From: Clostridia bacterium
GTDB taxonomy: Bacteria; Bacillota; Clostridia; Lachnospirales; Anaerotignaceae
Reading direction: 5' to 3'
Length of the DNA stretch: 64,000 bases
Assembly: GCA_022651385.1 (NCBI GenBank)
Contig: JALCQR010000008.1
Coordinates: 62,001-126,000 of the forward strand
In this document: positions 1 to 42,477 of the stretch, in pieces
How positions within the stretch are numbered: the first letter of the stretch is position 1
How the letters are laid out: each line of letters starts with the position of its first letter
Notes under the pieces: generated by a model
Database searches by the model: none
Told to the model about the DNA's origin: nothing
What the model saw: the letters and a program-made list of their open reading frames with translations, nothing else
Program-made: the position numbers and the translations under genes

Positions 1-525
1 AACCGGACACCCTATTCCCGGTGAGCCGTCTATTATGGCAAGCTCCGCATCCGTCGCTTCGTTTACAAGCTGATTTTTTACCGCCGCTACGAGTTTTCCG
101 GATGTACCGCTGCCCATTTTAAGCTGTGCCGAAGAAAATACCTTATCGTCATACTTATATAGTTTAAGGCTTCCCGATGAATATTCAGTCATCTTAATTG
201 CATGTACGGGACAAATTTCCGCACATAATCCGCAGCCTTCACATTCATAAATTCCAACCGTATAGTCTTTTATTGCATCAAAACGGCAGCTTTTTTCACA
301 TAAACCGCATTGAATACACTTTGAACTGTCAATAACCGCTTTGCCTAAGCCATAAAAATCCGTCTTTACTGGTTCAGGCATTTTTTGTGAAACAATTAAA
401 TGAAGATTAGGCGCATCTACATCACAGTCTGCAAAAGCACGGCATTTACTAAGCTCTATAAATGCACTTGACACTGTAGTTTTGCCAGTGCCGCCTTTGC
501 CGCTTAATACAAGAAGCTGTTTCAT
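1..525 (-). CDS. MinD-family ATPase with ferredoxin insert, partial (runs off the window start)
   Basis: The first 175 residues of a P-loop ATPase of the MinD/Mrp class are visible; the C-terminus lies outside the window. The deviant Walker A motif GKGGTGKTT is at residues 9-17. Two CxxCxxCxxxC ferredoxin motifs follow at about residues 70-80 and 95-105, giving two predicted 4Fe-4S clusters inserted in the ATPase fold. The start ATG overlaps the stop of the upstream gene by ATGA, so the two MinD genes are translationally coupled. Paired MinD proteins with ferredoxin inserts beside a NifX-like protein are known from the orange-protein (ORP) clusters of sulfate reducers and from clostridia. A role in metal-sulfur cluster assembly or transfer is inferred. 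Confidence 0.9.
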   Translation of the reverse strand, partial: MKQLLVLSGKGGTGKTTVSSAFIELSKCRAFADCDVDAPNLHLIVSQKMPEPVKTDFYGLGKAVIDSSKCIQCGLCEKSCRFDAIKDYTVGIYECEGCGLCAEICPVHAIKMTEYSSGSLKLYKYDDKVFSSAQLKMGSGTSGKLVAAVKNQLVNEATDAELAIIDGSPGIGCPV

Positions 526-1358
526 TGCTCTGCCTCCTTTTCAACGTCTTTAAGCAGTTTTTGAAAAAGCTCTTTATACTGCTTTGTTTCACGTACGGCT
601 ATAAGACCTTTGGAATTTAATTTGCCTAAATCCTGATTAAAAGGAACTTTGGCAAGAATATTGATTTTTTTATCAATGCAAAATTTTTCAGCAGGATTTT
701 CTTCAGGCAAACATTTGTTAAGCACAACTCCAAACGGTTTTTTAAACAGTTTAACCAAATTATAAACCATTTCCAGATTATGCACTCCAAAAAGTGTCGG
801 CTCCGCAACCAAAATACAAAAATCTGCTTTTCTAATGCTCTCCATTACAATACAGGCACTTCCCGGAGGGCAGTCAATTACCGTCGTTCCCTGATTTGGC
901 ATTTTCTCCATAAGCCCTTTTATAATAGGCACTCCTGAAACCTCTCCAGTATTTAAACATCCTGTTAGAATAGTTACATTTTCAGATGTACCATTTTCAA
1001 TTGTGCCGATTTCTCTGTCTTTTTCGGAAATTGCTTTTTCTGGACAAATGACTGAACATCCGCCGCATGAATGGCATACCTCATAAAAAATTAAAAATTT
1101 CTTTTTAATCAGAGCAAGTGCATTATATCTGCAAAATTCAACACATTTTCTGCATCCTGTGCATTTACTCATATCAACTTCAGGTACAGATACCGCAACA
1201 GGTAGCTTTTTTGTATTTTCGGGTTTTAAAAACAAATATCCGTTTGGTTCCTCAACATCACAATCCACATATACCGACTTATCAGCGGCACAGGCAAGAT
1301 TGACAGATACAAAAGTTTTTCCGGTTCCCCCTTTTCCGCTGAGCACGGCAATTTTCAT
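522..1358 (-). CDS. MinD-family ATPase with ferredoxin insert
   Basis: This 278-residue P-loop ATPase has Walker A GKGGTGKTF at residues 9-17 and two 4Fe-4S binding motifs, CTGCRKCVEFC near residue 66 and CHSCGGCSVIC near residue 95. Later a DCPPGSACIV stretch matches the Walker B/switch region of MinD proteins. It is a paralogue of the next gene in the operon, with which it overlaps by 4 bp; its own start overlaps the stop of the NifX-like gene by one base. Such pairs probably act as a heterodimer that hydrolyses ATP to load or move a metal-sulfur cluster. The family assignment is firm; the substrate is inferred from the neighbours. Confidence 0.92.
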   Translation of the reverse strand: MKIAVLSGKGGTGKTFVSVNLACAADKSVYVDCDVEEPNGYLFLKPENTKKLPVAVSVPEVDMSKCTGCRKCVEFCRYNALALIKKKFLIFYEVCHSCGGCSVICPEKAISEKDREIGTIENGTSENVTILTGCLNTGEVSGVPIIKGLMEKMPNQGTTVIDCPPGSACIVMESIRKADFCILVAEPTLFGVHNLEMVYNLVKLFKKPFGVVLNKCLPEENPAEKFCIDKKINILAKVPFNQDLGKLNSKGLIAVRETKQYKELFQKLLKDVEKEAEQ

Positions 1359-1729
1359 TATTTTTCACCCCCATGGTTGTGAAAACCAGCATGAATCTGA
1401 GTCAATAAAGGAAGTTTTCCGGCTTTAAATTTTTCAATATTTTCATTAACCGAACCGTCCTGTGCTTTATACATTTTAATATCGGCTGCATTTAACACAT
1501 CGGCTGCATTCTGGCCGCATCTATATGTTATAACAGCATCGGCATGGCTGTCTACGAGCATTTGAGCTGCTTTAATTCCTGCCCCGCCCTGACTGGCAAT
1601 AGCCGAGTTATCAATAAACTTATGTTCTTCGCTTTCTGTGTCATATAAAGCAAAAAAAGGAGTTCGTCCGAATGAAGGGCATACAGCAGTATCAAGAGAT
1701 TTCTTTTCCACAGGTAATATTAATTTCAT
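1358..1729 (-). CDS. NifX/NifB-domain (dinitrogenase iron-molybdenum cofactor family, orange-protein-like) protein
   Basis: This 123-residue protein has the features of the NifX/NafY/orange-protein fold: an N-terminal strand, the conserved CPSFGRTPFFALYD segment, a GGAGIKAAQML helix and a C-terminal CGxNA region. Relatives bind molybdenum or mixed Mo-Cu sulfide clusters, and in Desulfovibrio the orange protein is encoded beside MinD-type ATPases as here. AGGAGG lies just before the ATG, and the stop overlaps the start of the next MinD gene. The C-terminus has several histidines (HAGFHNHGG) that could bind metal. Which metal it carries cannot be told from sequence. Confidence 0.88.
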   Translation of the reverse strand: MKLILPVEKKSLDTAVCPSFGRTPFFALYDTESEEHKFIDNSAIASQGGAGIKAAQMLVDSHADAVITYRCGQNAADVLNAADIKMYKAQDGSVNENIEKFKAGKLPLLTQIHAGFHNHGGEK

Positions 1730-1794
1730 ATTGCTTTCCTCCTATAGTTTTTTATTGTTCTGTATTTTGGATTATACAGCAGTGTTTTATTTAC

Positions 1795-2643
1795 TTAGTT
1801 TTTATTTAATAACGCCTCAATTTCTTCAGACGCATATTTTAAACAATCATTGCTGAACCTTTCAAATTCACCTTTATCGGCAAGCTTTGCCATAACGGGG
1901 TCAATAGGCACTCTTCCAAGCACATTAAGGCTCAAGTCTTTTGCTGTTTCCGTCAGATTGCTTTCACCAAAGAGTTTAATAACTTTTCCGCAGTCAGGAC
2001 ATTTTATATAGCTCATATTTTCTACGACACCTAATACAGGAATATTCATTTGCTTTGCCATGTTATATGCTTTTTTAACAATCATTGAAACAAGTTCCTG
2101 AGGCGAAGTTACAATTACAATTCCGTCCAAAGGAATAGACTGAAATACAGTAAGCGGAACATCTCCGGTTCCCGGCGGCATATCAATAAACAAAACGTCC
2201 AAATCTCCCCATATTACATCTGTCCAAAATTGTTTAACCACTCCTCCAAGCAAAGGTCCCCTCCATATAACCGGCGCATCAGCCTGTTCAAGCAGCAAGT
2301 TTATAGACATAATGCTTATATCATTTCTCGTTTTAGCTGGTAAAATACCATCTTTATTCATAGTTGCCCTTTCGTTAATACCAAACATTTTTGGTATTGA
2401 AGGTCCGGTAATATCAGCGTCAAGAATTCCTGTTTTATAATCTTTTCTGTTCATCAAGACGGCAAGCATTGCTGTAACAAACGATTTTCCAACCCCGCCT
2501 TTGCCGCTTACTACTCCTATTACTTTTTTTATTGAATTTAATTTATTTGTTTCCTCAATAAAACTTTTTGGGTTCTTTTCACACCCTTCACAGGATTCTC
2601 TGCTGCATTCGCTATCTGAACAGGCTCTGTTTTCTTCCGACAT
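1795..2643 (-). CDS. mrp: Mrp/NBP35-family Fe-S cluster carrier ATPase
   Basis: This 282-residue protein is a Mrp/ApbC/NBP35-type P-loop ATPase. The N-terminus is cysteine-rich (four cysteines within residues 8-22), as in NBP35 proteins with an N-terminal 4Fe-4S site. Walker A is GKGGVGKS near residue 50, and the C-terminal CPDCGK supplies the CxxC that holds a bridging Fe-S cluster in this family. The ATG at 2643 follows an AAGGAG; an in-frame TTG one codon earlier is less likely. It lies in the same run as the radical SAM gene upstream (84-bp gap) and the NifX-MinD genes downstream. Its general role is carrying and transferring Fe-S clusters. Confidence 0.93.
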   Translation of the reverse strand: MSEENRACSDSECSRESCEGCEKNPKSFIEETNKLNSIKKVIGVVSGKGGVGKSFVTAMLAVLMNRKDYKTGILDADITGPSIPKMFGINERATMNKDGILPAKTRNDISIMSINLLLEQADAPVIWRGPLLGGVVKQFWTDVIWGDLDVLFIDMPPGTGDVPLTVFQSIPLDGIVIVTSPQELVSMIVKKAYNMAKQMNIPVLGVVENMSYIKCPDCGKVIKLFGESNLTETAKDLSLNVLGRVPIDPVMAKLADKGEFERFSNDCLKYASEEIEALLNKN

Positions 2644-2727
2644 CAAACTACAACTCCTTCGCTTTTATTGTTTTCTTAATAAATTAAGCTTATTAAAAAA
2701 TTTATGTACTTATACTTTTATTTTATT

Positions 2728-4095
2728 TCAAACAATTTCGTTTTCTGCTTTAAATGCCTGAATCATAACAGCACATTCAATTCTTTTCTTTTGAAGAGTA
2801 CATGAAAGCTCATTTGGCTCTGAAATATCGCCGTTTGTAAAATACGCATTTGCATGGCATCCGCCGGAACAAAACAGTTTTGCCCAGCAATCCCTGCATT
2901 TTTCTTTTGTAAGTATATTGTTTTTCATAAATTTATCACACAAATCATTGTTGCTTATTCCGTTATATATGTTTCCCACAATAAACTCATCCTGACCAAC
3001 AAATTGGTGGCATGGATATAAATCACCGTCGGGAGACACAGCCAAATATTCGTGCCCGGCTCCGCAGGCCGTTACTCTTTTAAATAAGCAAGGTCCGTTA
3101 TATATGTCGATATTAAAATGATAAAAACGGAATCTTTTTTTATCATCTTTCAGCCGCTCAATATATTGGCATGCCAAATTTTCATATTCTTTTAAAATAT
3201 CCGGAACATCCGAATCAGTAAAATACAAGTCACTTCCGGAACCCACAACCGGCTCAACTGAAATCTCTTTAAATCCTTTATCCGCCAAGTGCATAACATC
3301 TTTGGAAAAGTCCTTGTTCTTAGCTGTAAAGGTACCCCTAATAAAATATCTTTTTCCGTTTCTTCCTGAAACAAGCTTTTGAGCAAGAGGCATTATTTTT
3401 TCGTAGCTTCCGTTGCCTGCACAGTCATGACGTACAGTATCATGTACTTCTTTGCGTCCGTCAATGCTTATTACAACGTTATCCATATTTTCATTAAGGT
3501 AATTAATTCTTTCCTCATTAAGCAGCGTACCGTTTGTTGTAATGGTAAAATAAAAATGCTTTCCTGTTTCCTTTTCAATTTTTCTTCCGTAGGCAACAGT
3601 TTCTTTAACAACATCAAAATTCATAAGCGGCTCGCCGCCGAAAAAGTCAATTTCTATGTTGTGTCTGCCTTTTGAATTTTGTACAAGATAATCCACAGAT
3701 TTAAGTGCAACGTCTTTGCTCATCAATTTACGCCCGCTGTTATAATCCCCGCTTGATGCAAAGCAGTATTCACATCTTAAATTACAGTCATGTGATACAT
3801 GAAGACAAAGCGCTTTAAGGTCACTGTTTAATTTTTTTGAGCATGCGGCTTTTTCAAGTTCTTCCTCTGAAGAAAAAAGCATGTCTTGTTCATTTAATGT
3901 TTTGATTTCTTCATAAGCTTCATTAATTTCCTCTGAATTATACTTCCCGCCAAGCTTTTTTTGCGCGTTAATTAACGACGGCATTTTATCTTCATTTTTC
4001 AGCATTTCAAACGTGATATCATCAAGCAGATGAATTGTTCCGCTGTTTCCGTCTACTGCAATATTATATCCGTTAAGAGAGTAAGTATGAACCAT
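2728..4095 (-). CDS. Radical SAM/SPASM protein related to the SCIFF peptide maturase
   Basis: This 455-residue protein has the radical SAM motif CNLRCEYC near residue 110, the GGEP motif, and a C-terminal SPASM region rich in cysteine (CGAGHEY, CHQF, CRDCWAKLFCSGGC) for auxiliary Fe-S clusters. The N-terminus (HTYSLNGYNIAVDGNSG) and overall layout match the thioether-forming SCIFF maturase (CteB/ScfB) family. The ATG at 4095 is chosen because AAAGGAGAT precedes it; a 50-codon in-frame extension upstream has no ribosome site and an unlikely composition. The cysteine-rich SCIFF precursor usually found directly upstream is not seen here. The gene heads the Mrp-NifX-MinD run, and its promoter lies at 4351-4379. 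Confidence 0.85.
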   Translation of the reverse strand: MVHTYSLNGYNIAVDGNSGTIHLLDDITFEMLKNEDKMPSLINAQKKLGGKYNSEEINEAYEEIKTLNEQDMLFSSEEELEKAACSKKLNSDLKALCLHVSHDCNLRCEYCFASSGDYNSGRKLMSKDVALKSVDYLVQNSKGRHNIEIDFFGGEPLMNFDVVKETVAYGRKIEKETGKHFYFTITTNGTLLNEERINYLNENMDNVVISIDGRKEVHDTVRHDCAGNGSYEKIMPLAQKLVSGRNGKRYFIRGTFTAKNKDFSKDVMHLADKGFKEISVEPVVGSGSDLYFTDSDVPDILKEYENLACQYIERLKDDKKRFRFYHFNIDIYNGPCLFKRVTACGAGHEYLAVSPDGDLYPCHQFVGQDEFIVGNIYNGISNNDLCDKFMKNNILTKEKCRDCWAKLFCSGGCHANAYFTNGDISEPNELSCTLQKKRIECAVMIQAFKAENEIV

Positions 4096-4326
4096 TTTCC
4101 AATCTCCTTTTAGTAATGCCAATGCACAGCGGAGTACATATATATAAAAGCCGTAATACAGTAACATATTTACAGTGCAAAGGCATAATCTTTTGTAATA
4201 ATTTCTTGCACTGTCATATGTACTTACAAATTTAATCTGACACATGCCGGTCTGTATTTACAAATCATACACCGCAAGAAAACAATTACCATTATAGACA
4301 TGTATGTTTATTTATAATGGTACGAT

Positions 4327-4344
4327 TGTGAACTTATGTTCACA
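4327..4344. promoter_or_regulatory. 18-bp palindrome just after the radical SAM promoter
   Basis: TGTGAACTTATGTTCACA has perfect 7-bp arms around TTAT. It sits a few bases after the predicted transcription start of the radical SAM/Mrp/NifX/MinD unit, a position fit for a repressor. It differs from the TTATGnnCATAA site in the promoter itself, so a second regulator may act here. Confidence 0.5.
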
Positions 4345-4350
4345 ACAGTT

Positions 4351-4379
4351 ATTTTAGTACAGTTATGAGCATATGTCAA
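4351..4379 (-). promoter_or_regulatory. Promoter with TTATGnnCATAA-type operator (radical SAM/Mrp/NifX/MinD unit)
   Basis: On the minus strand, TTGACA (4374-4379) and TAAAAT (4351-4356) are separated by exactly 17 bp. The element TTATGAGCATAT occupies 4363-4374, against and inside the -35 end of the spacer. The same arrangement recurs at 6593-6621 and 8681-8709. Confidence 0.75.
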
Positions 4380-4467
4380 TATTGATATTGAAAATAGGGA
4401 TAAAAAAATAAGGTAAAAATAAATCGAATTTTCAGAGAAAAAATATTAGCAAAATCACACGAAAATA

Positions 4468-4499
4468 CGGGATGCTTTCCAATTTTAAAAAACACCCCG
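4468..4499 (-). terminator. Weak hairpin terminator after the DUF134 gene
   Basis: The minus strand has CGGGGTG paired with CATCCCG (one G-T wobble) across an A/T-rich loop, followed by TATTTTCG. The T-run is poor, so termination may be partial. Confidence 0.4.
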
Positions 4500-4549
4500 A
4501 AACTGAGAAGATTTAAGCCGAAATAATTATAGCGCACTCAGAATAATTA

Positions 4550-5029
4550 TTATTGTTCACTGTTTCTGCCGTGCCGCCAGCAGTTTCTTCTGCAGAACTT
4601 CCCCTTGCATGTCTGCTCACAGGCAATTTTTGTAGAGCCGCACTCCGGACATGAGTAATCTCCGTTTTTTATAGATTCCAGATTTTCGTAACTTTCCATC
4701 CATTCCTTGCCGCAGTCCATACATTTCACAGGACATATGTGCCTTGTAAAATTTCCGCCCTCTATGTGAATAGTTTTTCCGTTTACCAAACTGTCGGCGA
4801 CTTTCTCCCTTGCAGATAAAAGTATGCGCTGAAATGTTGGGCGTGACACCTGCATTTTTTCAGCACACTCGCTTTGTTCAAGCCCTTCAAGGTCTTTAAG
4901 TCTTATAGCTTCCAGCTCCTCAAGCTTTAATATATTCTCCGGAATTTCGTCCACACATTTATCCGACGGAACAAAGTATGGAATAGTAGGTATGTTTTCA
5001 ATTTTTCTCCATTTAGTAGGTCTTGCCAC
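4550..5029 (-). CDS. DUF134-family HTH protein, candidate regulator of this region
   Basis: This protein of about 159 residues belongs to the DUF134 family. It starts with the typical ARPTKWR sequence and has a sigma-70-region-4-like helix-turn-helix at about residues 45-75 (EQSECAEKMQVSRPTFQRIL). The C-terminus is rich in cysteine (CPVKCMDCG, CPECG and a final four-cysteine group), a likely zinc or Fe-S site. GTG at 5029 is preferred because GGAG lies 9 bp before it and family members begin MARP; an ATG at 5035 is possible. It is last in a unit with the DUF1847 and DUF89 genes. Being the only clear DNA-binding protein here, it is the natural candidate reader of the repeated operator. Confidence 0.82.
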   Translation of the reverse strand: MARPTKWRKIENIPTIPYFVPSDKCVDEIPENILKLEELEAIRLKDLEGLEQSECAEKMQVSRPTFQRILLSAREKVADSLVNGKTIHIEGGNFTRHICPVKCMDCGKEWMESYENLESIKNGDYSCPECGSTKIACEQTCKGKFCRRNCWRHGRNSEQ

Positions 5030-5058
5030 AACCATCAGCTCCGTTTCATCAGATTTTT

Positions 5059-5901
5059 TTATTTGTACATAAAAACATATTCATTTAAAGAAACTTCAAG
5101 TCTTTTGGAAATCAATGGGCATTTTGCCTTTAGAAGGAAGAATATCGGTCTTCCGCATTCCGACAGAGTTTCAAAATTTCCCTGACCTTTACTTATAACA
5201 ATATCCGCATTTTTAAATATGTTTAAAAACTCATCGGTACAGTCTTTAAGAATTGTTCCCGGTGCGTCACACCCTGTAGAAATTATTTTTGCATAATCAT
5301 CTAATCCTGAATCATACGCGTCTTTAACAGTTGCGTCATTAAGTATGGGATTGCTTCTTACAGCATATGTAATGTTTCTTGGTAAAAGACGTTCTGCCAA
5401 TATTTGGTCAAACACAGTCTCCCCGGCATTATCAGCGATAATCAATATATTTTTAGCTGTTCTAAGCTTATTTTCTAAAAGTTTGACATCACAGACCAAA
5501 AATTCTTTTTTAAGCTCACCTGAAACATATTCCGTCATGTTTGCGTTGTTATTTACCGCCGAGTCAATAATATTCCCTGTAGCCGCAATTTTAAGCGCCC
5601 AGTAAAGGCTGTTTTCTTTTTCTTTCAAAAAGTCTTTTAAGTATGGCAGTAATTGTTTTGCCGATTTTATATCTCTGCTTTTAATATGTGCATAAGGGTC
5701 CTTATTTTCTGTGCGGCTTTTTACCATTTTATGTATTGTCCTGCACAAATCCGGAGAACACTCATAGTCTTTATAATGAGATATAATCTCTATTGAGTCT
5801 TCCATTATTTTTCTTTGTAAATCCAAGTCATCTGTAGCCAAGCGCGAAGCCTCCAATGTTTGCCTTAAAACGCATGGCAGACAATCAAGAAATATTTCCA
5901 T
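5059..5901 (-). CDS. DUF89-family protein (ARMT1-like phosphatase fold)
   Basis: This 280-residue protein fits the DUF89 family. It has an N-terminal CLPCVLRQ, the conserved DNAGE motif near residue 155 that binds metal, and a later KGQGNFETL segment. DUF89 enzymes studied elsewhere are metal-dependent damage-control phosphatases acting on phosphorylated metabolites. The archaeal/clostridial branch with an N-terminal CxxC has no settled substrate. It lies 22 bp after the DUF1847 gene and 30 bp before the DUF134 gene, so the three are probably one transcript from the promoter at 6593-6621. Start ATG at 5901 follows AGAGGAAATACA. Confidence 0.85.
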   Translation of the reverse strand: MEIFLDCLPCVLRQTLEASRLATDDLDLQRKIMEDSIEIISHYKDYECSPDLCRTIHKMVKSRTENKDPYAHIKSRDIKSAKQLLPYLKDFLKEKENSLYWALKIAATGNIIDSAVNNNANMTEYVSGELKKEFLVCDVKLLENKLRTAKNILIIADNAGETVFDQILAERLLPRNITYAVRSNPILNDATVKDAYDSGLDDYAKIISTGCDAPGTILKDCTDEFLNIFKNADIVISKGQGNFETLSECGRPIFFLLKAKCPLISKRLEVSLNEYVFMYK

Positions 5902-5923
5902 TGTATTTCCTCTTTCATATGTA

Positions 5924-6550
5924 TTATTTTTTATTATATAATTTATCTTTATAGTATCCGTCAGATAAATAAAGTGCGCCTAACGGATTATGCGCCAAAA
6001 CTCTGTCTTTTACAGCAAAAACCGTAATAGGTGCATTTGAATATTTTATAAAAAGCGAGTCATGTCCTACACATAATCCCAAAATAATATTTAATTGTGT
6101 TTCAGACTTATTAAGAAAAACAGCCTGCCCGATAGGGTTGCACATAGGTTCATATTTACCGGGATGTACCTTTTGTTCTTCTTTAATCCCTATAAATTCT
6201 TTTTGTATGCTCCCGTTTTTACATGCAATAGAATTTACTTCAAAGCCATTATTTATAAGAATTTTGCATAATATATTGGCTTCTTTGCCAAGCCCCGTAC
6301 AAAAGGCCAGCCCAAGTTTTTTATAGCCGCACTTATGAGCAAAGTCCATAATTTCCTCAAGTCTTGTTTTCCTGCAGTAGCCTTCCGCTTCCGTAAGTGC
6401 AGAATTATACGCAAGTTTTTTATTTTCCTCGTCGGAATATAACTTTTTTATTTCATCCAGCTCATTTTCTTCTTTACATGGACAATTAAGCGGCATTTTA
6501 TCAAAGTCTCCTGATTCGCATGAATGAGCACACATGGCACAAGTATACAT
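5924..6550 (-). CDS. DUF1847 metal-binding protein
   Basis: This 208-residue protein of the DUF1847 family is cysteine-rich at its N-terminus (CAMCAHSC then CPC) and has further cysteines in the core (FCTGLG, CNPIG, GLCVGHD). The pattern suggests an Fe-S or zinc site, and the family is annotated as metal-binding without a known reaction. An AGAGGGAT ribosome site precedes the ATG. It is first in the DUF1847-DUF89-DUF134 unit and lies behind a promoter carrying the regional operator. Confidence 0.8.
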   Translation of the reverse strand: MYTCAMCAHSCESGDFDKMPLNCPCKEENELDEIKKLYSDEENKKLAYNSALTEAEGYCRKTRLEEIMDFAHKCGYKKLGLAFCTGLGKEANILCKILINNGFEVNSIACKNGSIQKEFIGIKEEQKVHPGKYEPMCNPIGQAVFLNKSETQLNIILGLCVGHDSLFIKYSNAPITVFAVKDRVLAHNPLGALYLSDGYYKDKLYNKK

Positions 6551-6592
6551 TTTAATCCCTCTTTTCTAAACACAAGATGCAGTATTTATTTT

Positions 6593-6621
6593 ATGGTATC
6601 TTAATTATGGGCATATGTCAA
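6593..6621 (-). promoter_or_regulatory. Promoter with TTATGnnCATAA-type operator (DUF1847/DUF89/DUF134 unit)
   Basis: On the minus strand TTGACA (6616-6621), a 17-bp spacer and TACCAT (6593-6598) are found. TTATGGGCATAT at 6605-6616 abuts the -35 box, as in the promoters at 4351 and 8681. Because the DUF134 gene is in this unit, autoregulation is possible. Confidence 0.72.
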
Positions 6622-6632
6622 CGCAATCATCA

Positions 6633-7580
6633 TTATATATTTTTTATATTTTTTCTATAAAACTTTTTGCCTTCATACGAAAACTCAAGCAGTTTTCCTT
6701 CTTTTACCAGCTGGTTTATTACAGCTTTGTCTGCGTTTCTTTTTTTGAGCAGCTCATCAACAATTTCTTCTCTTACAGGATGAACGGACGCAATGCTCAG
6801 CAAATCATCTGCTACAGCTTCAGTAAAGAAAAAGCCTTCTTCTTTTTCATCTCCCGTAATACACTCAACATCTGTTCCGGACATATCTTTAATAATTTTG
6901 TAAGCACTTAAAACCCTATCTTTTGCTGCTCTCTGTACATTATTTTCAGCAGGCGGACGTGTTGGTACCAATAAATATGCTTTGCTTGGATTTATAAGCG
7001 ACAGCTGTTTTGATATATATTTTATACAGTCTTCATCGTCATTAATTCCGTCTACAAGCATTGTCTCTGTCACAAGTGTTCCTTTATACATTTTTGAAAA
7101 CTCAATTATACCGTTTAAAATATCCTTATTATTCAGAGCTCCATGAGGTCTATCTATTTTGTGCCAAGTATCATTGTCCGTGGCGTCAATGCTTACCGAC
7201 ACCCAGTCCGCTTTCATCAAATCATTTTTTACGCTTTCCATCCATAATAGAGAAGCATTTGTTATTACGGCAATTTTAATGCCGAATTGTTTAAGCATGT
7301 CAATTTCGTACCCGAGGTTTATATCAAGAGTAGGCTCTCCATCCGGAACAAATGAAAAATAATCAGCGTGTTTATTTTGATTTTTTAATTGTTCCATTTT
7401 TAATTTTGCCTCATTAAAAATAACTTCCGGTTTATAAAACTCCTGTCTTTTAATCTGCATTTTATCAGTTTTTCCAAGCTGGCAGTAAATACAAGAATAT
7501 GAACATGTCTTAGGCGGTATATTATTTATGCCAATACTCTGACCCAAACGTCTTGAAGGTACAGGTCCGTATACAATCAT
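6633..7580 (-). CDS. Radical SAM protein, COG0731 (wybutosine-type) family
   Basis: This 315-residue protein begins IVYGPVPSRRLGQSIG, typical of COG0731 radical SAM enzymes. The cluster motif CSYSCIYC is at about residues 27-34, and VPDGEPTLD supplies the S-adenosylmethionine-binding GEP element. The C-terminal part lacks the tRNA-modifying domains of TYW1 and ends in a winged-helix-like region. The reaction is unknown for bacterial members, which often sit near Fe-S assembly genes. Unlike its neighbours it lacks the TTATGnnCATAA element in its upstream region. Its stop is close to the DUF1847 promoter. Confidence 0.88.
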   Translation of the reverse strand: MIVYGPVPSRRLGQSIGINNIPPKTCSYSCIYCQLGKTDKMQIKRQEFYKPEVIFNEAKLKMEQLKNQNKHADYFSFVPDGEPTLDINLGYEIDMLKQFGIKIAVITNASLLWMESVKNDLMKADWVSVSIDATDNDTWHKIDRPHGALNNKDILNGIIEFSKMYKGTLVTETMLVDGINDDEDCIKYISKQLSLINPSKAYLLVPTRPPAENNVQRAAKDRVLSAYKIIKDMSGTDVECITGDEKEEGFFFTEAVADDLLSIASVHPVREEIVDELLKKRNADKAVINQLVKEGKLLEFSYEGKKFYRKNIKNI

Positions 7581-7712
7581 TTTTCTTCATCCCCTTATTT
7601 TTATGCTTACGGTTAATTTAATAAATACACTTTATTTTATTCAATTTTTATTAAAATATAAAGTTTACAAAAAATCAGCGCCTTAATTTGCTACAAGCAT
7701 GGATTTAAAAAA

Positions 7713-7733
7713 AAGGCAGGAATACCCTGCCCT
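7713..7733 (-). terminator. Intrinsic terminator of the ferredoxin/DUF5320 unit
   Basis: The minus strand has GGCAGG and CCTGCC arms around a short loop, followed by seven or more T residues. Confidence 0.85.
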
Positions 7734-7751
7734 TTTACATAAGTTAACAAC

Positions 7752-8066
7752 TTATTCCGCATCTTTACTCAAATCGGAAATACGCTTTTTGACTTTTTCA
7801 AGCTGACCTACCAAAAATTCTTCCTGCTGATTTAAAAGCTTCTTTTCATCAATAGAAGGCTCATACGTTTCATCATATCCAGAACGTGCCCATCTCGGCA
7901 ATCCGGTTAAATAATACATTCTTCTATATCCGTGACCTCTGCCAAAACCACATCCTATTCTTTCATGATTATCGTATCCCTGCTCTGCAAAGCCTGCACA
8001 ATAACCTGCTTTTCTACCTGTCATAGGGCCCATTTCCATAGGTCCTGTACCGTTTCTTCTCGGCAT
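7752..8066 (-). CDS. DUF5320 protein
   Basis: This 104-residue protein has the glycine/methionine/arginine-rich N-terminus MPRRNGTGPMEMGPMTGR that defines DUF5320, then a GYC segment and a charged helical C-terminus (about residues 70-104, likely coiled coil). DUF5320 genes commonly accompany NifX-like and MinD genes; their role is unknown. AAAGGAG precedes the ATG. It is paralogous to the next gene upstream and last before the terminator at 7713-7733. Confidence 0.8.
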   Translation of the reverse strand: MPRRNGTGPMEMGPMTGRKAGYCAGFAEQGYDNHERIGCGFGRGHGYRRMYYLTGLPRWARSGYDETYEPSIDEKKLLNQQEEFLVGQLEKVKKRISDLSKDAE

Positions 8067-8095
8067 AGTTTATCTCCTTTCAAATTTATAATAAT

Positions 8096-8302
8096 TTAAT
8101 TTTGTGTTCTGTGATTTAACCAGCGGCAAGCGATGTATCCACATCCGGCCATCAGTCCCAGAAACCTAAACATTTTTCTAAACCGCCATCTGTGCCCAAA
8201 AATGGTGTTCATAAATCCGGGTTTATTAAAGCCTATGCAACCTGCCCCTCGGCCTGTTATCGGCCCCATTCCCATAGGCCCTGTACCGTCTCCTCTTGGC
8301 AT
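8096..8302 (-). CDS. Short DUF5320 protein
   Basis: This 68-residue protein has the same GDGTGPMGMGPITGRGAG start as its neighbour but lacks the charged C-terminal helix, ending instead in a hydrophobic stretch (FRFLGLMAGCGYIACRWL) that may be a membrane segment. ATG at 8302 is chosen: AAGGTGGTGAG stands before it, and the family always starts MPRGD or MPRRN. In-frame GTG codons just upstream lie inside that ribosome site. Confidence 0.75.
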   Translation of the reverse strand: MPRGDGTGPMGMGPITGRGAGCIGFNKPGFMNTIFGHRWRFRKMFRFLGLMAGCGYIACRWLNHRTQN

Positions 8303-8461
8303 AAATCTCACCACCTTTTAAATCATTAACCTAATGTAAATTATAAGCTTATAACTTTGATTTAAAAAATACGTTTTTCTTGCAAACATTTCTTTTAAAC
8401 TGTTTTAATATCACGTATATTTTTAACAGTGCTTACTTTTTTATCTTTTTAAAGCACAATT

Positions 8462-8629
8462 TTATACGCTTATTGCCTTATTCTGACATACATCTGTACA
8501 TGCACCGCATTCAATACAATCATCGCTTACAACAGCTTTTCCGTCTACAATTTTAATTGCTCCTACCGGACATGCATCTTCACATTTCCCGCAGCCTATA
8601 CATTTTTCTTTATTAACCTGAGCAGCCAT
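8462..8629 (-). CDS. Small 2[4Fe-4S] ferredoxin
   Basis: A 55-residue ferredoxin is encoded here. It has two CxxCxxCxxxC(P) motifs, [12 protein letters not shown] near residue 10 and [11 protein letters not shown] near residue 38, the layout of clostridial 2[4Fe-4S] ferredoxins. AAAGGAGATGATACCC gives a good ribosome site before the ATG at 8629. It is the first gene behind a promoter with two regional operators, and the two DUF5320 genes follow. A role as electron donor to the radical SAM or MinD proteins of this region is inferred. Confidence 0.9.
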
Positions 8630-8666
8630 GGGTATCATCTCCTTTAAAAAAAATATAGTTATTAGC

Positions 8667-8709
8667 TTATGCCCATAATTATAATAACTCCATTATGAGC
8701 ATATGTCAA
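8667..8709 (-). promoter_or_regulatory. Promoter with two TTATGnnCATAA-type operators (ferredoxin unit)
   Basis: Minus-strand TTGACA (8704-8709), a 17-bp spacer and TATTAT (8681-8686). TTATGAGCATAT at 8693-8704 abuts the -35 box as in the other two promoters. A second, perfectly palindromic copy TTATGCCCATAA lies at 8667-8678, immediately after the -10 box. Confidence 0.78.
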
Positions 8710-8737
8710 TAACTATATAAATAAATTTAAAAATAAA

Positions 8738-8760
8738 AAAAGAGCACATAGTGCTCTTTT
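8738..8760 (-). terminator. Intrinsic terminator of the znu-fur operon
   Basis: AAAAGAGCAC and GTGCTCTTTT arms with a 3-nt loop. On the minus strand the stem is followed by a run of T residues, just after the Fur-family gene. Confidence 0.88.
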
Positions 8761-8772
8761 ATACATACATAC

Positions 8773-9225
8773 TTAAATGTTATTTTTTCCCCCATTTATT
8801 TTTTTCTGACACTGAGGACATAAACCATATATGTCAAGCCTATGGCCTGAAATTTTAAAATGTGTTTCCTGTTCAAGTTCTTTCTCATAATTTTCAAGAG
8901 GGCAATAATATATATCAAGGATTTTCTTACATTCGGTACAGATTAAATAATGCTTATGCATCATATTGTTAGTTTCAAAAAGAGACTTGCTGTTACCGTC
9001 AATACTTACCTTTAAAACCAAATTTTTACTCGTCAATAGCTCAAGAGTTCTGTAAACAGTTGATAAATTGATGGAAATATTGTTTGACTTTAAATTTTCA
9101 TAGACTTCTTCCGCAGCAATCGGCTGTTTGCTTTTATCAAGAATATCCAATATGGCAACACGCTGCTTTGTAATCTTCAAACCGCTTTGTTTTAGGTTTT
9201 CACTATAATCCTTGTTAGTTTTCAT
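8773..9225 (-). CDS. Fur-family metalloregulator, probably Zur
   Basis: This 150-residue Fur-family repressor has the N-terminal winged helix (LKITKQRVAILDIL, then INLSTVYRTLELL as recognition region). Its dimer domain has the metal-binding HKHYLICTECKK and a second CPQC, together forming the structural zinc Cys4 site. It is the last gene of an operon for a zinc/manganese-type ABC transporter, which favours a Zur role over Fur or PerR. The probable target is the 21-bp palindrome at 11868-11888. The metal is inferred from context. Confidence 0.85.
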   Translation of the reverse strand: MKTNKDYSENLKQSGLKITKQRVAILDILDKSKQPIAAEEVYENLKSNNISINLSTVYRTLELLTSKNLVLKVSIDGNSKSLFETNNMMHKHYLICTECKKILDIYYCPLENYEKELEQETHFKISGHRLDIYGLCPQCQKKINGGKNNI

Positions 9226-9240
9226 ATTATCAAGCCTCTA

Positions 9241-10116
9241 TTATGGAATACATTTTGTAGTTTCTGCTGTTTTTGTTTCTTCTTTTGTTTCTGTTTTTTT
9301 CCTTCCTAATCTCCTACTTATTAATTTTACCATATATGATACAAAATAAGAAACAACTGATAAAATAACGATAGCAGCACCTGAAGCTATATTAATTTCA
9401 TATGAAATCCACAGTCCGGCAATACTAAAAACAATACCGAGCAAAATAGCATAAATCATACGCTTTTTTAGGTCGTCAGTTAAAAGTCCTGCCATTGCCG
9501 CCGGAGCCGTAAGCAGTGCAATTACAAGAATAATTCCAACTACTCTAATAAGAACAACTACCGTCATTGCTATTAAAATTAAAAGCAGATAATCAAGAAA
9601 AACTGTTTTTATACCTATAATTGAGGCAAATTCCTCGTCAAAAAGATAGGCTTTCCAATCATTATACAAGGAAATAATAATAATTGTTACAATAAAAGTC
9701 AATATAATTATTAAATAAAGATTAGCTTTTGTCACAGATAATATGTTTCCGAAAAGATATGAGCTTAAATCCGGAGGATATCCCGGCATAAGTGCAATAA
9801 AAAGAATACCCAAAGCCATTCCAAGAGACCAAAACAGTCCTATTATCACATCAGAATGTACCCCGCCTTTTCTTTTAATATATCCTATTCCCAGTGCCGC
9901 GCATATAGAAAATATAAAAGCACCTATAATAGGTTCAAAACCCAATAAATAGCCTAAACCTACACCGCCGTATGACGTATGTGCAATTCCTCCGCTCATC
10001 ATTACCAGTTTTTTTTCAACAATGATAACACCAATCATGCCGCAAACAATGCTTGCAAGTATACCTGAAAACAGAGCATTCTGCAAAAACTGATATTCAA
10101 AAAGTGCCTTAATCAT
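9241..10116 (-). CDS. znuB: Zinc/manganese-type ABC transporter permease
   Basis: This 291-residue membrane protein of the ABC-3 family has about eight hydrophobic segments and the conserved LVMMSGGIAHTSYGGVGLG segment near residue 40. It forms the channel for metal import with the ATPase and lipoprotein upstream. ATG at 10116 is chosen because GGAGGG stands 8 bp before it; a start 18 bp upstream has no such site. It overlaps the ATPase gene by 8 bp. The charged C-terminal tail (KKTETKEETKTAETTK) is unusual but not informative. Confidence 0.88.
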   Translation of the reverse strand: MIKALFEYQFLQNALFSGILASIVCGMIGVIIVEKKLVMMSGGIAHTSYGGVGLGYLLGFEPIIGAFIFSICAALGIGYIKRKGGVHSDVIIGLFWSLGMALGILFIALMPGYPPDLSSYLFGNILSVTKANLYLIIILTFIVTIIIISLYNDWKAYLFDEEFASIIGIKTVFLDYLLLILIAMTVVVLIRVVGIILVIALLTAPAAMAGLLTDDLKKRMIYAILLGIVFSIAGLWISYEINIASGAAIVILSVVSYFVSYMVKLISRRLGRKKTETKEETKTAETTKCIP

Positions 10117-10885
10117 TGTCTTTTCCCTCCTCATGTTTTCTTAGCACCCTATGAGGCACACCATGAGCAATTAAGTCAACCGGACATCCATACAGACTGT
10201 TTACAATATTTTCTGTAAGCTCCGGCTCTCCATGATAAACGAGATGTCCGTTCAGACATGCAATTCTATGAACCTGTGAAGAAACAGCAAATAAATCATG
10301 TGTAACCAAAATAATAGTCATACTTTTATTAAGCTCAGAAAGAAGTGAATATATCTGTTCACGTGAAACCGCATCCACGCTTGCGGTTGGTTCATCCAAA
10401 AGCAAAAGCTTTGGATTAACAGCAAGTGCTCTTGCAATAAGCATTTTCTGAAATTCTCCTCCGGAAAGCTCCGATATCTGACGGTCTGCAAGATCAGCAA
10501 TTCCAACACGTTCAAGAAGTTTATATGCCGATATTTTATTTTTTGAAGAAAACCGGAAAAAAGGAGATAAACCGCGTTTTAAATGCCCTGTAAGCACAAC
10601 TTCAAATAACGTAATTGGGAATTTTTTGTCAACAGACGAAAACTGAGGAACATAACCAACCAACGCTTTTCCGCTTCCCGGCTTTTTACCATAAATCTCA
10701 ACAATTCCGGATGAAGGAGAAACAAGACCAAGAATCGTTTTAAGCAATGTGGATTTTCCGCCGCCGTTAGGTCCTATAATTCCAAGATATTCTCCGTCAG
10801 ATACATCAAGACAGACATCTGTAAGCGCAGATGTCCGTCCGTAATTTACCGACAGGTTTTCAATATGAACTGCCGTTTCACTCAT
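10109..10885 (-). CDS. znuC: Zinc/manganese-type ABC transporter ATP-binding protein
   Basis: This 258-residue ATPase has Walker A GPNGGGKST near residue 40, the signature LSGGEFQK, Walker B LLLLDEPTASVD and the switch histidine in ILVTHD. It belongs to the MntB/ZnuC branch. Its start overlaps the stop of the binding lipoprotein gene by ATGA, and its stop overlaps the permease gene, so the three are tightly coupled. Confidence 0.9.
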   Translation of the reverse strand: MSETAVHIENLSVNYGRTSALTDVCLDVSDGEYLGIIGPNGGGKSTLLKTILGLVSPSSGIVEIYGKKPGSGKALVGYVPQFSSVDKKFPITLFEVVLTGHLKRGLSPFFRFSSKNKISAYKLLERVGIADLADRQISELSGGEFQKMLIARALAVNPKLLLLDEPTASVDAVSREQIYSLLSELNKSMTIILVTHDLFAVSSQVHRIACLNGHLVYHGEPELTENIVNSLYGCPVDLIAHGVPHRVLRKHEEGKDND

Positions 10886-11841
10886 TGCATAGCCTCCGCC
10901 ATAGTTTGAGCCATTCTTTTAAGATTATCAATATAATCGGCCGCTAACGGTTCAAGCTGTATAGTTTTTCCGCCGATTTCCTCGGCAAATGATTGGGACT
11001 GACTGCTGTCAATTTCTTCCTGATAAAAGATTACCTTGATATTTTCTTTCTTTGCAAGATCAACCATTTCCTGTAAATGCTGCGGCGTTGCTTCTTTTCC
11101 CTCATCTTCCAAAGCATACATTTTTAATCCGTAATCATCTGCAAGATATCCGAAAGCAGGATGATATACTATAAACTTTTTGCTCTTAACCCCTTCAAGT
11201 GAAGATTTTATTTCCTTATCAAGATCTTCGAGTTTGTTTATGTATGCTTCTGCATTTTTTTCGTATGTATCTTTATTTGCCTCATCTATTTTTCCAAGTT
11301 CCTGAGCAATTGTAGCAACCATTACCTCGGCTCTTTTCGGAGAAAGCCAAATATGAGGATCTCTTTCGCCGGACTCAAATTTTCTTTCTGGATATACATC
11401 GGCAACTTTACCCTGAAGCGAAACTACCTTAACATCTCCCACATTAGGCAGTATGTTTGCCTCTTCGGTCGGAACGCCAATAGAAAAATATAATGATGCT
11501 TTGCTGAATTTTTCCATCTGTTCCGGTGTAGGTTCATAATTTTCAGGACTGTTTCCCGGAGGAACCATAGTAATTACATCATCCAAATCCCCGCAGACTG
11601 CTTTTACAAATGTTTCTTCCGGAACAATTGTAACAGCAATAATCGGTTTTTCTTTTGGTTCAGCTGATGTACTTGCTGCTGCGCTTGATGCATTTGATGC
11701 ACTACTTGATGCGCTGGCTCCACTTGATGAATCAACTGTTTTGCTTGATGTAGTTTTTTGACTGTCACAGCCAGTGAACAACATCAAACAACAAACAAGC
11801 ATTACTCCCAACATAGAACAAATTACATTTTTAACTTTCAT
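10882..11841 (-). CDS. znuA: Zinc/manganese-type ABC transporter substrate-binding lipoprotein
   Basis: This 319-residue lipoprotein has a signal peptide ending in the lipobox LFTGC and then a serine/alanine-rich linker. The body is of the ZnuA/TroA family, with predicted metal-binding sites at the DPHIWLSP histidine, the HPAFGYLADDYG histidine and later acidic residues. It lacks the long histidine-rich loop of some ZnuA proteins. ATG at 11841 follows AAAAGGTGGA; an upstream in-frame ATG lies inside the operator palindrome and is rejected. It captures metal outside the cell and hands it to the permease. Confidence 0.88.
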   Translation of the reverse strand: MKVKNVICSMLGVMLVCCLMLFTGCDSQKTTSSKTVDSSSGASASSSASNASSAAASTSAEPKEKPIIAVTIVPEETFVKAVCGDLDDVITMVPPGNSPENYEPTPEQMEKFSKASLYFSIGVPTEEANILPNVGDVKVVSLQGKVADVYPERKFESGERDPHIWLSPKRAEVMVATIAQELGKIDEANKDTYEKNAEAYINKLEDLDKEIKSSLEGVKSKKFIVYHPAFGYLADDYGLKMYALEDEGKEATPQHLQEMVDLAKKENIKVIFYQEEIDSSQSQSFAEEIGGKTIQLEPLAADYIDNLKRMAQTMAEAMQ

Positions 11842-11867
11842 ATTTATCCACCTTTTCTCATAAATGC

Positions 11868-11888
11868 AAATGCAAATTATTTGCATTT
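11868..11888. promoter_or_regulatory. 21-bp palindrome, candidate Zur operator
   Basis: AAATGCAAATTATTTGCATTT is a perfect palindrome with 10-bp arms around one central base, the geometry of Fur-family boxes. It starts one base after the -10 box of the znu promoter, so binding would block transcription start. Confidence 0.72.
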
Positions 11889-11917
11889 ATTATAAGGCCG
11901 AGTCGGCAATATGTCAA
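11889..11917 (-). promoter_or_regulatory. Promoter of the znuA-znuC-znuB-fur operon
   Basis: Minus-strand TTGACA (11912-11917), a 17-bp spacer and TATAAT (11889-11894) give a consensus promoter about 50 bp ahead of the znuA start. Confidence 0.82.
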
Positions 11918-12049
11918 TGATATATTTTAAAAATATTTCAAGTTTATTTATTAAACACATGACATGCTTGAGAATCAGAATCGTTAATTAATATGAAATG
12001 TAAGAAAATGAATATATATTCTTTATTTTAAATGTCTGCATAATAAAAA

Positions 12050-41753: not shown

Positions 41754-42320
41754 TTAGTGGGAAAGCAAAGTATCGAAATATTTAGTCATTTCTTGTATAG
41801 ACACTGACATTCCTGTTCTAAACCACCATACTGCAAGTGAAACAGCTGCTCCTGTATAAAATTCCGCAATAACAACAATAGGCAGTTTAAAATCAGTTCT
41901 TCCTTTAGCATTATTTATACTCTTAAGTTCATCACATATATACTTAGAAATACTTTCATTAAAAACATGTCTTATATAGTCTCCACCTGAAATGAGGTTT
42001 TTTTCATAAAAGGCCCTGTGTTCCTTTATATCTTTCAGCACCTGCTCAAACATATATATAAAATATTCCTTGGAAGGCTTGTTATTTTCGTTTCCCGGAA
42101 AATGCTGGGTGAATTTTATTTTAAGTTCTTTCAGAAGCTGCATAAGCAACTGCTGTTTGTCCTCAAAACGATTATAAAACGTAGACCTATTAACCTGCGC
42201 CACATTACAAATTTCCTTTACTGATATTTCCTCAAAACTTTTCTGCTGCATTAATTCAAAAAGTGCATCCGTAAGCAATCTTATTGTAGTCCTTGTACGC
42301 AAATCCATTATTTTGTCCAT
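41754..42320 (-). CDS. TetR-family transcriptional regulator
   Basis: This regulator of about 188 residues has an N-terminal TetR helix-turn-helix (TIRLLTDALFELMQQKSFEEISVKEI, then VNRSTFYNRFEDKQQL) and a variable ligand-binding C-terminal domain with WWFRTG near the end. ATG at 42320 is chosen; the GGAGAG is somewhat far (14 bp), and ATG at 42308 is an alternative. It is divergent from the RND efflux genes and probably represses them through the palindrome at 42431-42446. Confidence 0.86.
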   Translation of the reverse strand: MDKIMDLRTRTTIRLLTDALFELMQQKSFEEISVKEICNVAQVNRSTFYNRFEDKQQLLMQLLKELKIKFTQHFPGNENNKPSKEYFIYMFEQVLKDIKEHRAFYEKNLISGGDYIRHVFNESISKYICDELKSINNAKGRTDFKLPIVVIAEFYTGAAVSLAVWWFRTGMSVSIQEMTKYFDTLLSH

Positions 42321-42430
42321 ATTTAATACACATTCTCTCCTTTTGTCTATAAAAACCACACTTAAAAATTATTGTTGATTGTATTTTGATATTTATAAGT
42401 ATATATTGTTTTGGTATAAAAGTAAATATA

Positions 42431-42446
42431 TTAGACATATGTCCAA
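42431..42446. promoter_or_regulatory. Palindrome, candidate TetR operator
   Basis: TTAGACATATGTCCAA is palindromic apart from one base pair. It lies between the divergent tetR and RND-adaptor genes, 32 bp before the adaptor start. Confidence 0.6.
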
Positions 42447-42477
42447 TAATTTGAAATGATTTTAAGGAGTGTGCAAT

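Follow-up and report, generated by a model that had tools for sequence, protein, structure and literature searches.

The window analysed here, a 64,000-nucleotide stretch of the genome of a Clostridia bacterium (GenBank assembly GCA_022651385.1, contig JALCQR010000008.1, positions 62,001 to 126,000 of the forward strand), carries three minus-strand gene units whose promoters, P1, P2 and P3, appear to share one operator. We propose that the DUF134 protein encoded at the end of the P2 unit is very probably the regulator that binds this 22-bp operator at all three promoters, most likely as an autoregulated repressor of metal-sulfur genes. The proposal draws on the sites, their conservation, their linkage to DUF134 genes, the autoregulatory position, a correlation between recognition helix and operator, and domain fusions; from these we infer DNA binding, a dimer, repression and a ligand.

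A candidate 22-bp operator covers the -35 boxes of P1, P2 and P3

An earlier note on this DNA had described three minus-strand promoters, each with TTGACA, a 17-bp spacer and a -10 box, and all three are present (Table 1). P1 and P3 match 11/12 of the sigma-70 consensus positions and P2 matches 10/12. Promoter likeness by itself says little, and positions 1-12000 hold 56 promoter-like sites, compared with 44.6 +/- 6.9 in shuffled sequence. The string TTGACATATGCYCATAA lies over the -35 box of P1, P2 and P3 alike and, with its two middle bases left free, has three exact matches in the 2.6-Mb genome, all at these promoters. Three exact and no one-mismatch matches to TTGACATATGNNCATAA were found in the genome, and the reversed control gave one match at up to one mismatch; when up to three mismatches were allowed, the two genome strands held 112 and 122 matches, not much above the 85 and 109 in the control. 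All three sites are less than 4 kb from the single DUF134 gene found in the genome.

The earlier note had taken the shared operator to be the 12-bp palindrome TTATGnnCATAA, with a fourth perfect copy at 8667-8678. That copy exists. As an operator the palindrome was rejected: at up to one mismatch it occurs 11 times in the window versus 7.1 +/- 2.7 in shuffles, and its exact copies in the genome number 14, as do those of a reversed-pattern control. Since TTATGnnCATAA is enriched in neither window nor genome, and is off-centre, the shared operator holds for the longer string only. At 61 DUF134-promoter sites the TTATGnnCATAA axis was less symmetric than the CATATG axis (0.34 versus 0.73), a comparison that favours CATATG because the site-finding matrix was symmetrised about it, the unselected flanks being the fairer evidence. 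In the loci from a gene-blind scan described below, the positions left free by the search string (RTTA before, Y after) agree with a 22-bp dyad, and several of the sites upstream of DUF134 genes are full palindromes centred on CATATG, for example GTTATTGACATATGTCAATAAC (L265) and ATTATGTGCATATGCACATAAT (L205-L207). Judged from these sites, the operator is a 22-bp dyad with its axis in CATATG. Because the conserved unit has this length and axis, the 12-bp palindrome is best read as a pseudo-dyad within one half-site. At the window's promoters the first half-site tends towards TTGACA, which also serves as the -35 box; the downstream copy at P3, under no such demand, reads ATTATGGGCATAAGCTAATAAC.

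The window was scored with a matrix derived only from DUF134 promoters of other genomes, with 200 shuffled windows as the control. The best scores of the shuffled windows had a mean of 12.8, a 95th percentile of 16.5 and a maximum of 21.1. The three highest-scoring sites in the window are at P3 and P1, and the two at P3, O3b and O3a, are 34 bp apart from centre to centre. The second candidate at P1, O1b, is weak alone, with a score within the shuffled range, and was also listed as a terminator-like stem.

DUF134 genes and the operator occur together

In a class sample of 293 genomes, DUF134 was found in 136 and the exact motif in 24. DUF134 was present in 21 of these 24 motif genomes compared to 136/293 overall (Fisher 2e-5, a value that ignores relatedness), and a reversed control pattern matched in 2/293. 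At 19 of 34 class sites, among them the window's three, a DUF134 gene is no more than 5 kb away, versus about 0.07 expected (the sites were counted by hand, and the expectation comes from rounded genome sizes and ~165 DUF134 genes). In a family sample of 58 genomes, the exact motif occurs in the source genome (G000) and in G020, G025, G026, G040 and G057. The exact sites of G020, G025, G026 and G057 are in clusters with DUF5320 and, on contigs of sufficient length, also with radical SAM, DUF89 and DUF134 genes; no gene of this kind neighbours the G040 site. G002 has a near match 5' of NifX-MinD-MinD.

The reverse test started from DUF134 genes identified solely through their protein sequence or profile, and used an operator matrix derived from the blind-scan sites. 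Genes with the same first 60 residues were collapsed into one entry, and genes with less than 150 bp of upstream sequence were dropped. An operator of at least 12 bits was found within 250 bp upstream of 62/140 DUF134 genes, compared to 0.4 in shuffled sequence and 2.9 in other 250-bp windows of the same loci. A recount without genes shared with the blind loci gave 61/134, and the tool-chosen loci alone gave 29/55. The DUF134 regions comprised 30 family and 30 class loci chosen by the tool and 79 picked by hand, mostly in list order but after the motif results were known. The operator rate was 32/79 for the hand-picked set versus 14/26 (family) and 15/29 (class), so hand-picking did not raise it. 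The operator upstream of the DUF134 gene or operon is therefore a feature conserved in relatives, and in the window it is supplied by P2.

The gene-blind scan searched the promoter pattern TTGACATATGNNCATAANNNNNNTANNAT across a collection of 84,980 species with genes ignored. It yielded at least 118 stretches, Ruminiclostridium cellobioparum being among the species matched, and 80 loci of at most 8 kb each were fetched; chance matches for the whole collection come to ~5 by a rough estimate from base composition. Among the matches listed, DUF134 was within 8 kb in 40/80 loci by profile and in 42/80 by tblastn. The other 40 loci represent 39 genomes, and 27 of these have DUF134 elsewhere, again among the matches listed. 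When these 40 loci were split by hand (L088, L120 and L152, which are borderline, were counted as having regulon-type neighbours), the genome had DUF134 for 27/32 loci with regulon-type neighbours versus 1/8 without (Fisher 3e-4), the eight being L090, L092, L093, L097, L116, L129, L136 and L142.

The check for conservation upstream of orthologous genes that the earlier note proposed was thus run, and the motif is conserved: in Clostridia and Halanaerobiales it precedes or neighbours genes for NifX/MinD/Mrp, ferredoxin, DUF5320 and DUF134, and in Petrotoga and Campylobacterota it neighbours DUF134 genes. A first gene was called for 83 of the 85 sites in the 80 blind loci (the other two had no open reading frame), and five calls were left out (L084, L090, the minus strand of L110, L115 and the second site of L138). 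Pfam on the remaining 78 downstream proteins recorded DUF5320 in 21, Nitro_FeMo-Co (NifX/ORP) in 17, DUF134 in 9 and NUBPL/Mrp in 6. The caller is heuristic and sometimes took the second gene, for example MinD at L085, L105 and L161, where NifX comes first, and an oxidoreductase at L127 and L158, where DUF134 does. First genes outside the ORP set include those for DUF364 heavy-metal chelation, DtxR-type and Fur-type regulators, cytochrome bd, a SLAC1-type channel, ZnuACB, and an oxidoreductase with rhodanese and sulfite-reductase domains.

Two arrangements in distant lineages were recorded alongside. In the Campylobacterota loci L107, L143, L128 and L115, a DUF134 gene encoding 190-196 aa diverges from the promoter motif, which lies 5' of cytochrome bd subunit I (L107 and L143), a SLAC1-type channel (L128) or no clear gene (L115). 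The Petrotoga contig L110 has at 1061-1108 two overlapping, opposed promoter motifs with one common inverted operator pair, beside a DUF134 gene.

The recognition helix varies with the half-site

AlphaFold2 predicted a recognition helix at residues 65-85 of the DUF134 protein. The mean predicted local distance difference test score (pLDDT) of the model was 78, with 91-97 in the helix-turn-helix (HTH) block and below 50 in the last 20 residues. A Sigma70_r4_2 match, below its cut-off, agrees with the predicted HTH, and so do the Foldseek matches to operator-bound DeoR and to SigE region 4 in complex with -35 DNA. The HTH of DeoR from Bacillus subtilis (SorC family, PDB 7bhy) superposes at 0.7 A over 40 columns (Foldseek probability 1.00, E 0.1), and the recognition helices of DeoR and DUF134 have an SRPT motif in common. 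A PDB sequence search with the HTH alone returned only DeoR, and with the whole protein it returned DeoR together with zinc-finger, rubredoxin and other weak matches. DeoR is a chain of 318 residues that includes an effector domain; in DUF134 the place of that domain is taken by a Cys-rich tail or a NifX/ORP domain.

Residue 70 is Arg in 42/44 proteins with a G-initial half-site (GTG class included) compared to 4/63 others. This set holds 107 DUF134 proteins found by protein and having a site, either in their own promoter or as a strong site from 3 kb upstream to 1.5 kb downstream. Of all HTH alignment columns, residue 70 has the highest mutual information with half-site class, and it changes 8 times on the tree. 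By our own pairing code, 8 independent pairs in the own-promoter set (n=66; quick tree, all branches) gave a mean of 7 changing the same way and 0 the opposite way (sign p 0.016), and the 107 set gave 5.8 pairs the same way and 0 opposite (p 0.03). Residue 66 was rejected as a specificity residue. It is Gly in 13/13 GTG-class proteins and in no other of 149 with a site, and a test of P, Q or A at residue 66 against half-site gave no association. Collectively, the class co-occurrence, the position upstream of its own gene and the correlated change in the recognition helix support the earlier suggestion that DUF134 reads the operator.

Several observations weigh against this assignment. In the family sample the motif at up to one mismatch was not associated with DUF134 (16/42 with, 4/16 without; p 0.54), and at this stringency the reversed control matched as many genomes as the motif, 20/58 each, so that only exact matches are informative and these alone were used afterwards. 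The G038 genome encodes a DUF134 protein 77% identical to the window's and has no site at up to one mismatch. Three of the 24 motif genomes in the class sample (G127, G319, G338) were without DUF134; the G127 site is inside an open reading frame and was rejected as an operator. Five blind loci that have regulon-type neighbours are from genomes in which no DUF134 was detected, and 78/140 DUF134 genes had no site of at least 12 bits within 250 bp upstream. Some of the latter, like the window's own gene, are not first in their operon, and others may use other operators. Within the window, O2 at P2 is weak alone, its 14.6 bits being within the shuffled range. As to the protein, well-supported branches alone leave 2 residue-70 pairs, residue 66 has no independent weight because its cases all belong to a single clade, with a single change on the tree, and the Foldseek matches are short, none with E <=0.001.

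A proposed mechanism of repression

In the proposed mechanism, the DUF134 protein, with its sigma-region-4-like HTH, would act as a dimer and bind the CATATG-centred 22-bp palindrome lying over the -35 box at each of the three promoters. At P1 and P3 a second bound copy 34-37 bp downstream would leave the -10 box bracketed. Repression would come about by occlusion of the -35 box, and is the most likely outcome given how close the covered promoters come to the sigma-70 consensus. P2 would drive DUF134 itself and thereby provide negative autoregulation; if the sites are its operator, autoregulation follows from the place of its gene as the last of the P2 unit. The regulon would be an ORP-type metal-sulfur module made up of radical SAM, Mrp, NifX/ORP, two MinD-ferredoxin ATPases, DUF1847, DUF89, ferredoxin and DUF5320 proteins. 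Release would probably be set by metal-sulfur, iron-sulfur (Fe-S) or redox state. The sensing part would be the Cys-rich tail, or a fused NifX/ORP domain in other members of the family.

It is unlikely, in our estimate, that DUF134 is instead an activator or a sigma-70 partner at the -35 box. Such a role would suit the similarity of its HTH to sigma region 4, of which one structure is bound to -35 DNA (sigma E, PDB 2h27), and the overlap of the operator with the -35 box in the window, where both proteins would sit. However, the full-consensus -35 boxes and 17-bp spacers, and the good -10 boxes of P1 and P3, should need no activator, and the second operators past the -10 boxes are in a position typical of repression. 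Unlike sigma factors, DUF134 matches no other sigma region, and the palindromic operator suggests a dimeric regulator rather than a sigma factor.

Inside 4351-8709 DUF134 is, as the earlier note had said, the only DNA-binding protein, but a Fur-family gene that had gone unmentioned lies just outside and directly adjoins P3, so DUF134 is not the sole candidate regulator nearby. A Fur/Zur-family protein encoded with a ZnuABC-type transporter could bind the operator and link the regulon to iron, zinc or peroxide. This fits with the relatives L113 and L145, in which the promoter motif is 5' of a ZnuA-ZnuC-ZnuB operon that a Fur-family gene follows (L113) or precedes (L145), and with L120, where the first gene is Fur-type and the genome has no detected DUF134. 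Across genomes, however, the operator was not found linked to Fur genes: the same tblastn listed a Fur-type gene in 4/80 blind loci versus DUF134 in 42/80, and L120 adds one Fur-type gene by Pfam. L113 and L145 also contain DUF134 by tblastn, the operator variants track the DUF134 recognition helix, and the operator is, we take it, unlike a Fur box. We therefore regard a Fur-family reader as very improbable. That the conservation reflects sigma-70 promoter sequence and the common ancestry of duplicated promoters, with no regulator, is scarcely credible: the motif includes TTGACA and duplication could explain three promoters in one cluster, but the conserved block extends beyond the -35 and -10 boxes and recurs as second copies past the -10 box, the motif is found next to the same gene families in different phyla, and the GTGCATATGCAC that lies upstream of one DUF134 subclass is without TTGACA.

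A possible metal-sulfur sensor and its relation to known systems

For DUF134 as repressor, the part joined to the HTH suggests what might be sensed. Long DUF134 forms have a Cys-rich tail in which C105 is invariant in 29 aligned proteins and C132 nearly so. Among 10 DUF134 proteins scanned for Nitro_FeMo-Co (PF02579), 6 were above the Pfam cut-off, all of 225-264 aa, while the 4 Campylobacterota forms (190-196 aa) gave 2 weak matches below the cut-off and 2 without a match. Fusions with both domains above the Pfam cut-off are those of L101, L150, L284, L294, L302 and L306. The NifX/IssA superfamily is described as binding Fe-S and Fe-Mo-S clusters (PMC5524996, in part). Given the Cys-rich tail, the NifX/ORP fusions, this cluster-binding superfamily and the metal, sulfur and redox character of the first genes, the ligand is probably a metal-sulfur or redox signal.

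More tentatively, and with the odds in our view slightly against it, DUF134 may found a family of metal-sulfur-cluster-sensing repressors of anaerobes. The tail or NifX/ORP domain would bind a thiometallate or Fe-S cluster directly, the same domain type would carry or store clusters in the targets and report their level in the regulator, and the targets in Campylobacterota would be cytochrome bd or anion-channel genes. The IssA/NifX/NafY superfamily (IPR003731) includes both the regulated NifX/ORP gene and the sensor-like domain fused to DUF134; its proteins bind, carry or store clusters, none being described as part of a transcription factor in the portion of that account drawn on here (PMC5524996).

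The gene content of the P1 unit resembles that of the ORP operons of Desulfovibrio vulgaris (DVU2103-2109), in which the Orp proteins other than Orp3 and Orp4 are, we assume, of MinD and NifX type. Orp3 and Orp4 have 4Fe-4S motifs, and a Mrp/NBP35-type protein is encoded with them, according to one section of PMC6345978. The two Desulfovibrio orp operons are sigma-54 dependent and activated by DVU2106 with IHF, as extracts of PMC4641369 and PMC3897727 state. In contrast, the promoters in the window are of sigma-70 type and overlap the proposed DUF134 operator, with Mrp and NifX as two proteins rather than one; genes of the same kind would thus be under different control.

DUF134 is still named a family of unknown function in a 2025 copy of Pfam. 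Our literature search, which had most subscription journals outside it, returned no title or start of an abstract that indicates a function for the family. A table row in PMC5886521 lists a possible transposon insertion in a UPF0251 gene in one adapted rex-deletion culture. If our reading is true, a widespread family of unknown function (136/293 class genomes) becomes a transcription-factor family with a defined operator and regulon. It would also have a first recognition rule, Arg70 with the G-class half-site, and there would be a control scheme for ORP-type metal-sulfur clusters outside Desulfovibrio.

Genes of the three units and further operator-like sites

The features of the window are listed in Table 1. 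The 4550-5035 protein belongs to PF02001 (DUF134, UPF0251). The P1 unit has the content of an ORP cluster, as its NifX/ORP, Mrp and two MinD-ferredoxin ATPase genes adjoin, and the spacing suggests that they form one operon. The 1795-2646 protein did not pass as a MrpORP fusion by model NF041136, with 345.6 bits versus a cut-off of 450 and coverage of 1-242 of 365. The radical SAM protein passes the SCIFF-peptide maturase model TIGR03974 (622.6 versus a cut-off of 425 bits).

Table 1. Promoters, candidate operators and genes in the window
Feature	Position	Strand	Description
Promoter P1	4379-4351	minus	TTGACA (-35, 4379-4374), 17-bp spacer, TAAAAT (-10, 4356-4351)
Promoter P2	6621-6593	minus	TTGACA (-35, 6621-6616), 17-bp spacer, TACCAT (-10, 6598-6593)
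Promoter P3	8709-8681	minus	TTGACA (-35, 8709-8704), 17-bp spacer, TATTAT (-10, 8686-8681)
Candidate operator O3a	8692-8713	minus	over P3 -35; best site in window, 25.1 bits; exact promoter motif
Candidate operator O1a	4362-4383	minus	over P1 -35; 22.9 bits, second in window; exact promoter motif
Candidate operator O3b	8658-8679	minus	past P3 -10, contains 8667-8678; 20.4 bits, third; zero-mismatch match to TTATGRGCATAWGNNNATAA
Candidate operator O2	6604-6625	minus	over P2 -35; 14.6 bits, rank 5; exact promoter motif; one outer arm degenerate
Candidate operator O1b	4325-4346	minus	near-palindrome TTGTGAACATAAGTTCACAA, 37 bp from O1a; 12.4 bits, rank 8; 3 mismatches to TTATGRGCATAWGNNNATAA
CATATG-centred palindrome	42428-42449		17.2 bits, rank 4 in window
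Second MinD-type ATPase gene, ferredoxin domain, P1 unit	1-525	minus	runs off window; Fer4 above cut-off, CbiA just below
MinD/ParA-type ATPase gene, ferredoxin domain, P1 unit	522-1358	minus	CbiA and Fer4
NifX/ORP-type gene, P1 unit	1358-1729	minus	PF02579, 83.3 bits
Mrp/NBP35-type (NUBPL) Fe-S carrier ATPase gene, P1 unit	1795-2646	minus	PF10609, 308.5 bits
Radical SAM/SPASM gene, first of P1 unit	2728-4095	minus	PF04055 and SPASM
DUF134 gene (putative regulator), 161 aa	4550-5035	minus	PF02001, 79.2 bits (Pfam cut-off 27); last gene of P2 unit
DUF89/ARMT1-like damage-control phosphatase gene, P2 unit	5059-5901	minus	PF01937
DUF1847 gene, first of P2 unit	5924-6550	minus	PF08901
GGCAGG/CCTGCC hairpin	7715-7731		after the 7752-8066 gene; listed on plus strand, T-run read on minus strand
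DUF5320 gene, P3 unit	7752-8066	minus	PF17253
DUF5320 gene, P3 unit	8096-8314	minus	PF17253
Ferredoxin gene, first of P3 unit	8462-8638	minus	two 4Fe-4S motifs; Fer4 families
Fur-family gene	8773-9225		directly adjoins P3, just outside 4351-8709

The genes that adjoin the Fur-family gene are read as ZnuABC-type transporter genes from their open reading frames. The promoter of the ZnuA-type gene, at 11917-11889, is a perfect sigma-70 consensus and starts TTGACATATT. It may be an eroded operator, since the ZnuACB promoter in L113 and L145 has the full promoter motif.

Two other sites were rejected as operators of the regulon. The palindrome at 42428-42449 is between divergent TetR-like (41754-42359) and efflux-like (42469-43629) genes, as judged by eye from open reading frames, and is probably the TetR-like regulator's own site, with the core in common by chance. 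A weaker operator-like site elsewhere in the source genome (G000:C12:8248) is inside an open reading frame. A further operator-like sequence in the source genome, TTATGAGTATATGCCAATTA, with 2 mismatches (L312 2066-2085; G000:C1:339565), is just 5' of a CobW-type GTPase gene that is followed by a second, similar open reading frame, making the GTPase gene a possible fourth target.

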